Under the pieces are notes generated by a model. That model was given only the letters and a program-made list of their open reading frames with translations. It was not told the DNA's origin and made no database searches. A program made the position numbers and the translations under genes. Below are positions 13,065 through 18,586 of a DNA stretch of 64,000 nt, piece after piece (the first letter of the stretch is position 1; each line of letters starts with the position of its first letter). This DNA is from Roseateles oligotrophus (lineage in GTDB: Bacteria > Pseudomonadota > Gammaproteobacteria > Burkholderiales > Burkholderiaceae_C): contig NZ_JAJIRN010000007.1 in the NCBI RefSeq assembly GCF_025717515.1, forward strand, positions 372,001 to 436,000, in the 5' to 3' direction.

Positions 13065-14276
13065 CTACTGCTTGACCAGACTCAGCATGTCGCGCTGCGC
13101 CAGCTTGACCAGCCCCAAGACCTCCGCATGGTAGGCCGTGGGGTCGGCGATGGCGCTGGTGAATACAAACTGCACGTCGGCTCCGGTGCCGCCCAGCGTG
13201 GTGCCGAGCAGCGCGCCCATCAGGCCGCGCTCCTTCTGAGCGGGCGCCTCGACGTAGAAGGACTCCGTACCGCCCAGCAGTGACTCCGCCAGCGTGACGA
13301 CGACATCGCCGTCTTTGGCCGGACTGGCGCTTTTGCCGAAATTGGCCGTGTAGCCGCCGGGGGCGGACTCCCCCTTGGGCGAGGCCGCCGCCGTGCGGAA
13401 GGCAATGCGCGACTGCCCAGCCAGCAGGCCGACCTGGGCATAGGCGTTGGCCTTGTAGGTCGAGATGATCTTGTCGGCTTCTTTGTCGCGCTGCTCGCGG
13501 CTCTTGTACTGCGGGCCCACGGTGTAGGCAATTTGCCGCTCGCCGGGTTGGTAGCTTTGCGTGGTCGCGGCCTTGGTCGAGCCGAGTGTGATCACGTAGC
13601 TGGCCTTGACGATATGGGCATTCAATTCCTTGGCCAGCGCCACCTCCAGGCCCGGCAATTCATAGATTTCTCCGGTGCGGGTATTGGAGGGGCCGCCCTC
13701 GGTGGAACTCTTTTGTCCCCAGCCCGAAACCCAGTCCTTGATCAGCGTTTTCAACTGGACGCTGAACTTGCCCGTCTCGGCGTTGTAAGGCAGGTAGGGC
13801 TTCAAGCCACTGGCGCCGACGAGCATCACGTCGCCGTCCATATTGGCGAACTTTGAGTAGTTGGAGATGCCCGCCAGCGCCGTTATTTTCTGATAGCCGG
13901 GGCTGGCCAGCACGGTGGCCTCGGGCAAGACCTCATAGCCATTGGCCTGCAGGTCATCGCGCAGCTGCTGGTAGATGTCATCGCTAATTGCGGCCAGCAG
14001 TTTGAGGTCGAAGACCGGCATTTGCAAGGTGGCGGAGGTGTCGGTCTTGTTGGCGAAGAGGCCGCTGGTGTTGGTCTTCTCGCCGCCTGTCGACGCTTGA
14101 AAGGACAGCAGCACATTGGTGATGGCCACCCGTTTGTTGCCGGCGAGCCGCGCCGCGTTGCTGTCGGTCAGCTCGACCTTGGCTTGTGGGGCGGGAGCTT
14201 GCGCGCCGGCCCATGTGCAAACCAAAAGAGCAGCGACAGAAAGCGCTGTTTTGAAGACAAGGGTTGAGGCAGGCAT
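13065..14276 (-). CDS. Exported protein of unknown function
   Basis: The 403-residue product has a clear signal peptide (MPASTLVFKT, hydrophobic core, AGAQA cleavage near residue 26) and a GGAG ribosome site before the ATG. The mature part has alternating strand-like segments (KRVAITNVLLSFQ, GDVMLVGASGL, ASYVITLGS) suggestive of a periplasmic or outer-membrane-associated beta-rich protein. I do not recognise a family. It lies 110 bases downstream of the ECF sigma factor on the same strand, so it may be co-transcribed with it or be one of its targets. It is intact, with no frameshift. Confidence 0.7.
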   Translation of the reverse strand: MPASTLVFKTALSVAALLVCTWAGAQAPAPQAKVELTDSNAARLAGNKRVAITNVLLSFQASTGGEKTNTSGLFANKTDTSATLQMPVFDLKLLAAISDDIYQQLRDDLQANGYEVLPEATVLASPGYQKITALAGISNYSKFANMDGDVMLVGASGLKPYLPYNAETGKFSVQLKTLIKDWVSGWGQKSSTEGGPSNTRTGEIYELPGLEVALAKELNAHIVKASYVITLGSTKAATTQSYQPGERQIAYTVGPQYKSREQRDKEADKIISTYKANAYAQVGLLAGQSRIAFRTAAASPKGESAPGGYTANFGKSASPAKDGDVVVTLAESLLGGTESFYVEAPAQKERGLMGALLGTTLGGTGADVQFVFTSAIADPTAYHAEVLGLVKLAQRDMLSLVKQ

Positions 14277-14386: not shown

Positions 14387-14998
14387 TCAGCGCTGCGCCA
14401 ACTCCCGGTGCAACCAGGCCCGGGCCATGGTCCAGTCACGTTTCACGGTTGCCGCTGAGATGGCCAGCAAGTCGGCGATCTCGTCAATCTCCAGCCCGCC
14501 AAAAAACTTCAGCTCGACCACCTTGGCGGCGCGGGCATCGATCAGCTCGAAGGCCAGCAAGGCCTCGTGCACCTGCACCACCTCGCTGTTGATGCTCTGG
14601 CCGATTTCCTCGGCCTCGGTCAAGTTCAGGGACACCAACTCGGCCTCGCGTTTGGCTGCTTGTTTGGCGATCGCATGGTTGACCAGAATGCGCCGCATCA
14701 TCAGCGCGGCCACGCCCATGAAGTGGGCTCGGCTTTGCCAATCGGTGCGGGTCTGCTCCTTGAGGCGAAACCAGGCCTCATGGGTGAGTGCGGTGGCGCT
14801 GAGCGTGTGGCCGGCCGACTCCTTGCGCATCTGCGCGGACGCGGCGCGCTTGAGTTCGCCGTAGAGTGCGGTGAATACCTGGTTGACGGCCTGTGCCGAG
14901 TTCGCCGGGCTTGCCGCATGTTCCGAGCTTGCCGACGCGCCGCCGTCCAGCTGTTGCAACCACAGCGTCAAATCAGCGCAGGCGGGGTTTGTTTCCAT
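14387..14998 (-). CDS. ECF sigma factor of the kinase-associated type (TIGR02999-like)
   Basis: From the ATG at 14998 the product is 203 residues. Sigma region 2 spans about 40-115 (THEAWFRL, then RRILVNHAIAKQAAKR) and region 4 about 145-198 with a helix-turn-helix (EIADLLAISAATVKRDW). In ordinary ECF factors the residues before LxxEAF are acidic (DAED-like) and contact the beta-prime clamp. Here they are S67-A-T-A, with no acid and two phosphorylatable residues. This matches what is known of ECF factors that are switched on by phosphorylation (the EcfP/PknT pair of Vibrio). A Ser/Thr kinase gene is divergent 88 bases away. No anti-sigma gene is present. The frame is open upstream to 15154 but overlaps the kinase start. 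Confidence 0.88.
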   Translation of the reverse strand: METNPACADLTLWLQQLDGGASASSEHAASPANSAQAVNQVFTALYGELKRAASAQMRKESAGHTLSATALTHEAWFRLKEQTRTDWQSRAHFMGVAALMMRRILVNHAIAKQAAKREAELVSLNLTEAEEIGQSINSEVVQVHEALLAFELIDARAAKVVELKFFGGLEIDEIADLLAISAATVKRDWTMARAWLHRELAQR

Positions 14999-15003
14999 TG
15001 GGT

Positions 15004-15081
15004 CGATTGTGTGGCCGACCGGGCTTTCCCGAACAGAGGGCTTGTGCGGATGGGGTCGGCGCGTAGACCGCCGCACAATCG
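15004..15081. promoter_or_regulatory. Symmetric CACAATCG elements before both divergent start codons
   Basis: Each gene of the divergent sigma/kinase pair is preceded by CACAATCG, then five bases, then ATG (minus strand 15011-15004; plus strand 15074-15081). Together they form a perfect 8-bp inverted repeat across the intergenic region. They could be matched operator half-sites or -10-like elements of leaderless transcripts. The sequence alone does not decide. Confidence 0.5.
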
Positions 15082-15086
15082 CGCTC

Positions 15087-17825
15087 ATGCCCTCTTCAGC
15101 GCCCTCTTCAGCCCCTTCTTCGAAGCCTGTCTCCAGCGCCTGGCCTGCCATCAAGGCCTTGTTCGAACGGGCGCTTGAGCAGCCGCAGGCGCAGCGCGAG
15201 GCCTGGGTACGCGATCAGGCCGCGAGCGACGCCGACGCCTCGCTGAGAGACGAGGTCTTGTCGCTATTGGCGCATCACCGCGATGCGACCGGCGGGTCGG
15301 AGTTTTTGGCCGAGTCGGCCGCGCAGAGCCTGGCCGGCGGCGCTGCGCAGAGCCTGGCCGGCGGCGCTGCGCAGAGCCTGGCAGACGGCGCTGCGCGCCG
15401 GGGCCAAAGGCTGGGTGCTTGGGAGGTCGTGCGGCCCTTGGGCGCCGGTGGCATGGGCGAGGTGTTCGAAGCACGCCGCGCCGACGGCCAATACCAGGGT
15501 CGGGCGGCGATCAAACTGCTCAAACGCGGCATGGATTCGGTGGCGGTCTTGCAGCGTTTTGCACAAGAGCGCCAAGCGCTGGCGCGCCTGCAGCATCCGC
15601 ATATTGCCGGCCTACTGGACGCCGGCCTGAGCGCCGACGGCCTGCCGTTTTTTGTGATGGAGTATGTCGACGGGCAGCCGCTCGACCTCGCCGCAGCCAA
15701 GCTCCCGGTCGAAGCCCGCCTGGCCTTGTTCTTGCAGCTGACAGACGCGGTCGAGCATGCGCACCGGGCGCTGCTGGTACACCGCGATCTCAAGCCCGGC
15801 AATGTGCTGGTGACGCCCGAGGGTCAGGTCAAGCTCTTGGACTTTGGCATCGCCAAGGCGCTTGATCCGCTCGAAGGTAGTGGTGGCGTCGGCGACGACA
15901 CGACGGTCGGCTCGGCGCGCCCCTTCACACCCAACTACGCCAGCCCCGAGCAGGTGCGCGGCGAGCCCGTCACCACCTCAACCGACATCTATTCGCTCGG
16001 CGTCTTGCTCTATCAATTGCTGACCGGCGTGCGCCCGACCGGCCGGCGCGCCACCACGCCGGCCGAGGCCGCCCGCAGTGTCTTGGACGAGACGCCCACC
16101 CGGCCCAGCGGACTCAGCGAGGATCTGGGCTTGGGCCCGGATTGGCCGAGCACCCGCAAGCGCTTGAGCGGCGATTTGGACAATATTCTGCTGAAGGCAC
16201 TGGAGAAAACGCCGGCCCGCCGCTACGCCTCGGTCGAGGCCTTTGGCGCCGATCTGCGCGCTCATTTGGCCGGTTATCCGGTCTCGGCCCATGCCCCCAG
16301 CCGGGGCTATCTGCTGGGCAAATTCGTGCGCCGCAATCGCCTGCCGGTGGGCTTGGGTCTGCTGGCGGTATTGGCGCTGCTGGGCGGCGCCGCCGCAGCC
16401 ACCTGGCAGGCGCACGAGGCGGCGCGCGCGCGCGATGAGGCGCAGGCCCATCTGGCGCGCATCCGCAACATCACCCGCGAGGTGGTGCTGCGCCACGGCG
16501 ACGCCATCACCCATTTGCCGGGAGGCCTGAAGGTCAAAGAGAGCTTGCTGAAAGACCTGCTCAAGCACCTCGAGCAACTCGCCGCGGAAGGCGGGCAGGA
16601 CAGCAGCGGGCAGGGCAGCGCCTGGCAAGCCGATATTGCGACCGTCTATGCCCGTCTGGCCGATATCGAAGCCGATGACAACGGTGCCTCCTTGAACAAG
16701 GGCGCGGAAGCGCGCGAATTTGCCGATCGAGCCGTGAGCCTGGCCGAGCGGGTCTGGCTGCAGCAGCGCGGCGATGCCGATTTCGTCGGCCTGTATGTGC
16801 AGGCGTTGCAGGTGCAAGCACTCGGCCTGCGGGCGGCCAAGAAGCCGGCCGAGGCTGTGCAGCTGATGGAAAAAGCGCTGGCGCGGCTCGACGAGGCCGA
16901 CGCCGCCGTGCCGGCGGACAAACGCCGGGCGCTGCAGTTGACGCGGGCGGCGGCGCTGCTGCGCATGGGTTTGTTCTACGACAACCAGACCAACGCCAGC
17001 CTGAACAAGCCCGAACTTGGCCTGCAATGGTTGGCCAAGGGTGAGGCCTTGTTGGACCAGTTGGGCCAAGCGGCAAAAGAGCCGCAGTGGCACGAGATCA
17101 GCGCCTCCTTGTACGGCGCTCGTGCGCTGACGTTGGCGCGTGTCAACAAGCTCGCCGAGGCGCGCGTGCAGGCCGAGGCTGCCGTCGCATCGCGCCAGGC
17201 CGCGGCCGCGCTGGCGCCCAACAACACGGCGGTGATAGACGGCGTTGTCAGCGAGGCGGCCAATCTGGGTGTGATCCTGTTGCGCCAGCCCGATGTGGCG
17301 GCCGCGCTGCTGGCGACCCAACTCTCCTGGACGCAATGCGAGCGCCTGGTGCGCGAGGCCGGGCCGGGCAATAAATGGGAAGCCGACTTGCCCCGCGTGG
17401 CCCTGCATCATGGCCGGGCCTTGGTCGAAAACCAGCGCTACGCCGAGGCGCTGCCGGTCGTCAAGCTGGCGCTGGACGGACTCGCGGCGCGGGCCGCCAA
17501 GCAGCCCAGCCCCTATCTGGCGCGCTTGCAGGCTTGGCAAAACCTCTATCTGGCGCGGGCCTTGCACGGCAGCGGCCAAGCGGCGCCGGCCTTGGCCCTG
17601 TTGCACCAATCGGTCACCGTGTTGATGCCAATGGCCGAGGCCGAAAAGGCGCGCGACGCCTTGCTCAACCTCGGCGAGGGTCAGGCCTTGCTGGCGCAAT
17701 GGGAGCCCGCGCAGCGCACGCAATGGCAGGCGCAAGCCAAGCGCAGTTACCAGCGCGCCCATGCGATCACTGCCCTGGCCGGCGACCATGCCCAACGCTA
17801 TCAGGCCTTGGGTGGTGTTTTGTAA
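15087..17825 (+). CDS. Receptor Ser/Thr protein kinase with C-terminal helical repeats
   Basis: 912 residues from the ATG at 15087. A short Ser/Ala N-terminus and a three-copy AAQSLAGG repeat (about 77-102) precede the kinase domain (about 108-390): glycine loop GAGGMGEVFEA (119-129), Lys143 in AAIKLLK, HRDLKPGN (232-239), DFG (252-254) and SPE (286-288). All catalytic residues are present. One transmembrane helix lies at about 419-440, followed by about 470 residues of TPR-like helices, presumably periplasmic. It is a Hanks-type kinase of the kind that pairs with TIGR02999 sigma factors, and that sigma gene is divergent next door. Sigma phosphorylation is an inference. Confidence 0.9.
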   Translation: MPSSAPSSAPSSKPVSSAWPAIKALFERALEQPQAQREAWVRDQAASDADASLRDEVLSLLAHHRDATGGSEFLAESAAQSLAGGAAQSLAGGAAQSLADGAARRGQRLGAWEVVRPLGAGGMGEVFEARRADGQYQGRAAIKLLKRGMDSVAVLQRFAQERQALARLQHPHIAGLLDAGLSADGLPFFVMEYVDGQPLDLAAAKLPVEARLALFLQLTDAVEHAHRALLVHRDLKPGNVLVTPEGQVKLLDFGIAKALDPLEGSGGVGDDTTVGSARPFTPNYASPEQVRGEPVTTSTDIYSLGVLLYQLLTGVRPTGRRATTPAEAARSVLDETPTRPSGLSEDLGLGPDWPSTRKRLSGDLDNILLKALEKTPARRYASVEAFGADLRAHLAGYPVSAHAPSRGYLLGKFVRRNRLPVGLGLLAVLALLGGAAAATWQAHEAARARDEAQAHLARIRNITREVVLRHGDAITHLPGGLKVKESLLKDLLKHLEQLAAEGGQDSSGQGSAWQADIATVYARLADIEADDNGASLNKGAEAREFADRAVSLAERVWLQQRGDADFVGLYVQALQVQALGLRAAKKPAEAVQLMEKALARLDEADAAVPADKRRALQLTRAAALLRMGLFYDNQTNASLNKPELGLQWLAKGEALLDQLGQAAKEPQWHEISASLYGARALTLARVNKLAEARVQAEAAVASRQAAAALAPNNTAVIDGVVSEAANLGVILLRQPDVAAALLATQLSWTQCERLVREAGPGNKWEADLPRVALHHGRALVENQRYAEALPVVKLALDGLAARAAKQPSPYLARLQAWQNLYLARALHGSGQAAPALALLHQSVTVLMPMAEAEKARDALLNLGEGQALLAQWEPAQRTQWQAQAKRSYQRAHAITALAGDHAQRYQALGGVL
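15321..15392 (+). repeat. Three tandem 24-bp repeats inside the kinase gene
   Basis: Two identical copies and a third with two changes encode AAQSLAGG-like octapeptides just before the kinase domain. The in-frame unit length means copy number can change without breaking the gene. Such repeats are prone to slippage, so linker length may vary between strains. Confidence 0.9.
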
Positions 17826-17863: not shown

Positions 17864-18586
17864 TTAACGGGCTTGTCCGCTTTTGCACCTGACTTTTTGC
17901 CCATTCGTAGCGCCAATCATGCCGATGCCCGCCAAGACCAGCAACAAGCTGGTCGGTTCTGGGATGTTGTTGCCGCCGCCGCTTGCCCCTGAAGTAACAC
18001 GCCAGCTGCCGGCACCGCGCATGTTTGAAAAGCCTTCGGACAGGCTGGCGTACAGCGGCTCGCTGTGTATGCCGGTCGAGTATTGGCGCAGGTAGTTGCT
18101 GGCGAGAAGCTGCTGGTCGTAACCATCGAAAGCTTCCGTCAATGTCGATGTATAGGGTTCCAGGGTCGGGATCACGACGGCCCCATCGAGGTAAAAGCGC
18201 GCCATCGTCACCTCGCCGCTATTGCCGGTGCTGAGCGCGAGGCCGGTCAAATGGCCGCCCAGGGCCGAACCGGTATTCATGAAGGCGCTGCCGCCGTGAT
18301 ATTTCCAAGACAGGACGTCCGGCAGCAGATTGGCGTTGCAGCCCACATGCACCGGCCCGGCCCCGCAGCCCGCGTTGATCAAGGGGCCGGCGACGGTGAA
18401 TTCAAATTCGATGCCCGAGCCGTCCAGGCCGCCGTAATGAGCCCAGTTGGCCGAGCCCCAGCTATTCGCCCAGTAGGTGATGGGCGCCTTGTAGGTGTAG
18501 GTGACCGAGGCCTGTGCGGGCATCAGGGTGACAAATGTGAGGGCCATTGCGCCGAGCAATTGGGCACCGTTTGTTAGCATTTTCAT
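17864..18586 (-). CDS. PEP-CTERM sorted exported protein
   Basis: A 240-residue protein with an N-terminal signal peptide (MKMLTNGAQL, hydrophobic run, AQAS near residue 27) and a C-terminal sorting tag: the tripeptide PEP in NNIPEPTS, then a hydrophobic helix (LLLVLAGIGMIG) and a basic tail. Such tags direct exosortase/XrtA processing and are common in exopolysaccharide-producing Betaproteobacteria. The middle part is Gly/Ser/Tyr-rich without a recognised domain and has two Cys residues. The start at 18586 was chosen for the signal peptide. It is convergent with the Ser/Thr kinase gene. No exosortase gene is in this window. Confidence 0.82.
   Translation of the reverse strand: MKMLTNGAQLLGAMALTFVTLMPAQASVTYTYKAPITYWANSWGSANWAHYGGLDGSGIEFEFTVAGPLINAGCGAGPVHVGCNANLLPDVLSWKYHGGSAFMNTGSALGGHLTGLALSTGNSGEVTMARFYLDGAVVIPTLEPYTSTLTEAFDGYDQQLLASNYLRQYSTGIHSEPLYASLSEGFSNMRGAGSWRVTSGASGGGNNIPEPTSLLLVLAGIGMIGATNGQKVRCKSGQAR

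Follow-up and report, generated by a model that had tools for sequence, protein, structure and literature searches.

A divergent ECF43-type sigma factor and PknS-like transmembrane kinase, very probably switched by phosphorylation, in Roseateles oligotrophus

The DNA considered here is a window of 64,000 nucleotides from Roseateles oligotrophus (NCBI RefSeq assembly GCF_025717515.1, contig NZ_JAJIRN010000007.1, positions 372,001 to 436,000 of the forward strand), a part of a 5.76 Mb genome referred to below as G000. Between positions 14,387 and 17,825 of the window lie two divergent genes, one encoding an extracytoplasmic function (ECF) sigma factor, P0001, and the other a transmembrane Ser/Thr kinase, P0002, with 88 bases separating their two ATG start codons. 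The pair is compared with two known systems of the ECF43 group: EcfP and its kinase PknT from Vibrio parahaemolyticus, and EcfK and its kinase PknS from Xanthomonas citri. The features of the pair, in coordinates of the window, are the following:

14387..14998, minus strand: ECF43-type/TIGR02999 sigma factor P0001, 203 aa, ATG start
14789..14800, minus strand: SATA, residues 67–70, replacing the acidic region-2.2 motif, by direct reading and by hhalign against EAED
14792..14794, minus strand: Thr69, expected activating phosphosite, at the position of the EcfP phospho-Thr and EcfK T51
14618..14620, minus strand: Thr127 in the linker, probable counterpart of EcfK T106, suggested by column comparison
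15031..15051, no strand assigned: 21-base intergenic block, possible control site, identical in the congener G005
15087..17825, plus strand: transmembrane Hanks-type Ser/Thr kinase P0002, PknS-like, 912 aa, ATG start
15126..15314, plus strand: N-terminal helical module of the kinase, common to PknS, from profile matches, the alignment with structure 9eed and a model
15423..16235, plus strand: kinase catalytic domain, residues 113–383, PF00069
16341..16397, plus strand: predicted membrane-spanning segment, residues 419–437, hydropathy peak 2.15

P0001 matches TIGR02999 (Sig-70_X6) of NCBIfam with 178.6 bits against a cut-off of 126.15 and exceeds the cut-off of Pfam family PF07638 with 145.6 bits, and no difference from the ECF sigma factors of these families was seen. 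Its AlphaFold2 model is all-helical (predicted local distance difference test, pLDDT, 75.7) and the structural relatives listed for it are mostly sigma factors; no sequence relative was found in the PDB at E ≤ 0.1. An initial annotation of the window had read residues 67–70 as S-A-T-A at codons 14800–14789 and had pointed to the lack of acids there, and direct reading agrees. A profile comparison of region 2.2 by hhalign, with 33 family members set against 11 other ECF sigma factors from related genomes, pairs S67-A68-T69-A70 with the E-A-E-D of ordinary ECF factors. The absence of the acids is therefore genuine, and the alignment places none at the clamp-contact positions. In the AlphaFold2 model Thr69 is the second residue of a helix spanning residues 68–82. 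The absence of an anti-sigma gene, also claimed earlier, is borne out for the two genes adjoining the pair, which were those covered by the Pfam and NCBIfam scans. P0001 is an ECF43-type factor as assigned by its features, rather than by the published ECF43 group model: region 2.2 has no DAED-like acids, a Thr occupies the third place of the motif, and a Ser/Thr kinase is found nearby with no anti-sigma gene in either of the adjoining genes scanned.

The divergent kinase, described at the outset as an intact membrane Ser/Thr kinase 88 bases away, is confirmed by its motifs, by PF00069 (130.8 bits, cut-off 31.7) and by its hydropathy. GAGGMGEV (residue 119), AIK (141), HRDLKPGN (232), DFG (252) and SPE (286) are all intact, and hydropathy predicts a single hydrophobic segment near residues 419–437, followed by about 470 residues that would form a long outer C-terminal part. 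The best solved sequence relative is 9eed with 178.6 bits and the second is PknB with 126.5 bits; 9EED is the structure of PknS according to PMC13147305. The 9eed alignment spans residue 15 through the catalytic domain and includes the N-terminal segment. P0002 thereby combines the features of a PknS-like receptor kinase, an intact Hanks domain, one predicted span and an N-terminal helical segment, although its 912 residues compare with 833 in PknS. No TPR family was reported for it in the Pfam scan at E ≤ 0.001. Within the gene, a 24-base unit repeated 3.2 times at 15321–15396 encodes AAQSLAGG repeats that extend the linker joining the catalytic domain to the N-terminal module; about one copy is present in the orthologue from G005. 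The 21-base block at 15031–15051 in the intergenic space is identical in G005 although the surrounding sequence differs. Its use as a mark of a regulon is unsupported, because with up to three mismatches only the intergenic site of G000 and G005 was recovered, plus a single 3-mismatch site elsewhere in G000 and none in G008.

Position counts were taken over 97 aligned family members, namely the window's own sigma factor, 85 from fetched loci and a further 11 that came from a kinase search across the class. L074 (the same place as L061), the window open reading frame (ORF), the fragment L118 and L152 (the same gene as L057) were left out, and the counts are nearly unchanged when L152 is retained (n = 98). 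At position 69, 87 of the 97 have Thr, 4 have Ser and none has Asp or Glu; at position 67, 13 have Ser and 31 an acid, and at position 70 an acid occurs in 8. With Thr so prevalent and acids never found at the Thr69 position, SATA cannot be regarded as an unusual motif, and the absence of region-2.2 acids is the normal state of ECF43 sigma factors. The published ECF43 consensus is given as QTTA, with Thr in 88% of members (PMC13147305). In EcfP the motif STTA replaces DAED, and the charge of ECF43 factors is described as being restored by threonine phosphorylation (PMC8103513); the second Thr of EcfP is reported to be phosphorylated by PknT, which is encoded nearby (PMC8999054). EcfK has the motif QATE and is reported to be phosphorylated at T51 by the neighbouring kinase PknS (PMC13147305).

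Because EcfP and EcfK are phosphorylated at the matching Thr, Thr69 is preferred over Ser67. Of the two residues that the initial annotation had offered as phosphosites, Thr69 is thus the one expected to act as the switch, and Ser67 is much less likely. Thr127 in the linker probably matches EcfK T106, a correspondence drawn from alignment columns rather than from a direct comparison with the EcfK sequence, and it is a likely second phosphosite. Its column holds Ser, Thr, Asp or Glu in 69 of the 97 members and Thr itself in 9; for T106 of EcfK a value of 76.9% is reported (PMC13147305). The authors of that study conclude that one of the two residues, T51 or T106, is enough, and the single variant T51A is reported to be functional (PMC13147305). 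Since Thr127 is the probable counterpart of T106, replacement of Thr69 alone by Ala may not inactivate the sigma factor.

The analogy with EcfP and PknT drawn in the initial annotation holds on each point compared: the TIGR02999 cut-off is passed, the acids are replaced (SATA here, STTA in EcfP), the third-place Thr of the family is present, a kinase lies nearby, and the best solved relative of that kinase is PknS. The likeness to EcfK and PknS extends to a Thr at the T51 position and the probable T106 counterpart. EcfK keeps one acid in its motif, whereas P0001 has none. The pair is a member of this known kind, whose mechanism very probably holds for it too.

The two genes also tend to be inherited together. 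A kinase occurs within 1 kb of the sigma gene in 78 of 88 sigma rows, a count that includes one locus twice and uses untrimmed frames. Of 18 genomes of the genus, 3 (G000, G005 and G008) have a sigma factor at least 73% identical, a match of 41% in G014 being excluded, and a kinase orthologue (E ≤ 1e-100) is present in the same three. The sigma factors of the window, G005, G008 and Beta proteobacterium AAP65 form one clade with support 0.995, and a clade (100/100) likewise unites kinases from these four genomes in a tree that held one of the two AAP65 kinases; a separate FastTree tree groups both with that clade. AAP65 carries, one after another, three sigma factors (SATA, SPTA and GPTA) and two kinases (L075:1460-12380), an array that is a local duplication of the divergent sigma–kinase module. 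In G008 the pair has come apart with both halves retained: contig C29 carries the sigma gene, whose flanks of about 4.4–5 kb on each side yielded no kinase, and contig C1 carries the kinase gene, at about 70 kb from the end of that contig and with no TIGR02999 match listed nearby.

Missing acids, a conserved Thr, intact kinase motifs, PknS homology and paired inheritance are thus observed at this locus. Taken together they argue strongly that P0001 is an ECF43-type sigma factor whose cognate kinase is the PknS-like transmembrane protein P0002, and that the sigma factor is switched by phosphorylation; its regulon, its signal and the phosphorylation itself are predictions. Lacking the acids by which region 2.2 grips the beta-prime clamp, the sigma factor would be made in a form that is idle by default. 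The outer part of the kinase would sense a signal, upon which the kinase would phosphorylate Thr69 and perhaps Thr127 in the linker. The added charge would allow the sigma factor to join RNA polymerase and to start its genes, probably including that of the neighbouring exported protein described below.

Several points weigh against this interpretation. Its support for this pair comes from sequence comparison, and the search set is skewed toward relatives of the window sigma factor. The family is not uniform, as about one third of it has an acid at the first place (31 of 97 at position 67), where the window sigma factor has none, and 8 of 97 have one at position 70. Ten of the 88 sigma rows, of which some lie at the end of a contig, lack a kinase within 1 kb. 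Because the two genes are linked in G000 and G005, their co-occurrence there is not independent, and only G008 provides an independent case. Since EcfK T51A alone is functional, Thr69 may be dispensable. Finally, the congeners G009 and G004 have sigma factors with SQGE or SKGE (L062:4747-5346 and L063:4663-5280), which carry a fourth-place acid and no third-place Thr yet adjoin module-bearing kinases.

The alternative that survives best places the switch in the linker, with phosphorylation of Thr127 activating the sigma factor in the manner of EcfK T106 and Thr69 being minor or redundant. It draws on the report that either site suffices in EcfK (PMC13147305), on the Thr present at residue 127 of P0001, and on a column in which 69 of 97 residues are phosphorylatable or acidic. 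However, Thr is far more conserved in the Thr69 column (87 of 97 against 9 of 97), Glu128 already provides a charge next to Thr127, and the residue aligned to Thr127 is Ala in the close relative AAP65. SATA also has no fourth-place acid, unlike QATE of EcfK. On balance, a linker switch of this kind is unlikely. A sigma factor that is active without phosphorylation, set for example by its amount, with the kinase acting on another target, is less probable again: the kinase-free surroundings of the sigma gene in G008, a member of the clade, would suit it, but G008 keeps the orthologous kinase elsewhere in its genome, and P0001 has no acids at the clamp-contact positions. Least probable of all, and by a small chance only, Ser67 would be the phosphosite instead of Thr69, since it takes the place of the first acid in the profile alignment and ECF59 and the former ECF60 are described as having a serine as their site (PMC8103513), yet its column is Ser in only 13 of 97 members and acidic in 31, and EcfP also has Ser there while its second Thr is the phosphosite (PMC8999054).

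The preferred interpretation, a sigma factor phosphorylated by its partner kinase, raises the matter of how the two proteins meet, on which the N-terminal module of P0002 may bear. This segment precedes the catalytic domain and is common to PknS and to sigma-adjacent kinases of several phyla; it was seen in kinases adjacent to TIGR02999 sigma factors in records titled Acidobacteria, Planctomycetota, Gemmatimonadetes, Bacteroidetes and others. Its model (pLDDT 82.8) has three to four helices, at residues 18–30, 34–44, 48–68 and 70–87, and gave no clear fold match. For the PknS segment, similar AlphaFold2 helices are reported, together with conservation among Xanthomonadaceae homologues and a possible function (PMC13147305). 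Among the source texts as accessible, this was the only one found to mention the segment in a search on its spread or docking role, which did not extend to Iyer et al. 2020 on EcfP.

A profile of the module was built from 26 segments, none from a proteobacterium-titled record and one from an unclassified bacterium (A4). Against 39 genomes, in 9 of which only the first 150 candidates were scored, it matched 33 places in 15 genomes, which represent 2 of 22 genera. A sigma factor over the cut-off occurs in 16 of the 39 genomes, and these include all 15 with a match; the other 23 genomes had none. For 27 of the 33 places, a TIGR02999-type sigma factor is at most 3.5 kb away. In G000, searched with a profile to which it did not contribute, the module is found in all three sigma-adjacent kinases and in none of the nine others. 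Over 10 genomes with 110 kinases, at the genome-wide threshold, it is present in 21 of 31 near-sigma kinases against 4 of 79 far ones, and none of 20,000 within-genome shuffles reached 21. A more sensitive gene-level search found it in 42 of 42 near-sigma and 6 of 62 far kinases (7 of 62 with an in-sample profile). These 42 differ from the set of 31 and comprise 2 rows from AAP65 and 40 drawn from the window together with loci of the genus and the family; the 17 of the 79 far kinases excluded have sizes of 325 and about 500 residues that mark two other families.

All seven far kinases with the module, as well as the module-less kinase L135, sit within the near-sigma kinase clade (0.997, FastTree). 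With the far positives inside this clade, an association of the module with sigma adjacency that is independent of kinase ancestry is not established; ancestry therefore explains most of the pattern, and the module marks a sigma-partner kinase subfamily. A docking role is possible and is put forward tentatively: the module would be the domain on which the sigma factor docks, and would so define a subfamily of dedicated sigma kinases that extends across phyla. Within the near-sigma clade, the kinase L135 (G000:C23:180155-180802) lacks both the module and an adjoining TIGR02999 sigma factor and is a natural control.

The genes on either side of the pair had been proposed as its outputs:

13065..14276, minus strand: exported protein, 403 aa, with a hydrophobic N-terminus, candidate output
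17864..18586, minus strand: PEP-CTERM-like protein, PF07589 20.2 bits (cut-off 20.7), weak candidate output

The proposal is better sustained for the exported protein, for which no Pfam family was found. In a comparison over 59 related genomes, G000 and G008 alone have a match to it, and G005 has none. Its homologue adjoins the SATA sigma factor in G008 (L059), and in AAP65 (L075) it lies between the paralogous sigma factors SPTA and GPTA, which fall in the same sigma clade with support 1.0, about 4 kb from the SATA sigma factor. A homologue is thus found beside this sigma factor or its close paralogues in 3 of the 4 genomes of the sigma clade, and this conserved neighbourhood makes the exported protein the likeliest local output. 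The protein family as a whole is not sigma-specific, as 7 of 300 genomes of the order match, including that of the window, and the other six matches, which are distant homologues, have no such sigma factor within 1.5 kb. The PEP-CTERM identity of the second protein is borderline, its PF07589 match falling just below the cut-off. A PEP-CTERM protein lies on the same kinase side in G005 (L074) with an unrelated body, and at E 1e-10 the compared loci yielded no homologue of the window ORF, which leaves that ORF unsupported as a conserved output and at best weakly a candidate. The known systems differ in what they control: the EcfP regulon confers polymyxin resistance in Vibrio parahaemolyticus, and PknS/EcfK controls a type VI secretion system, which neither of the two adjoining genes scanned here encodes.

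To the known systems this pair adds a narrowed phosphosite, a probable second site, a split pair and a kinase module, and it is a clean case of a signalling route linking Hanks kinases directly with RNA polymerase. From the comparison, a testable role emerges for the N-terminal segment of PknS, the specificity of the kinase for its sigma factor. If the module does act in docking, it would explain how such kinases pick one sigma factor among many possible targets and why the unlinked pair of G008 can still work. That split pair is itself a natural test of whether the sigma and kinase genes must adjoin.

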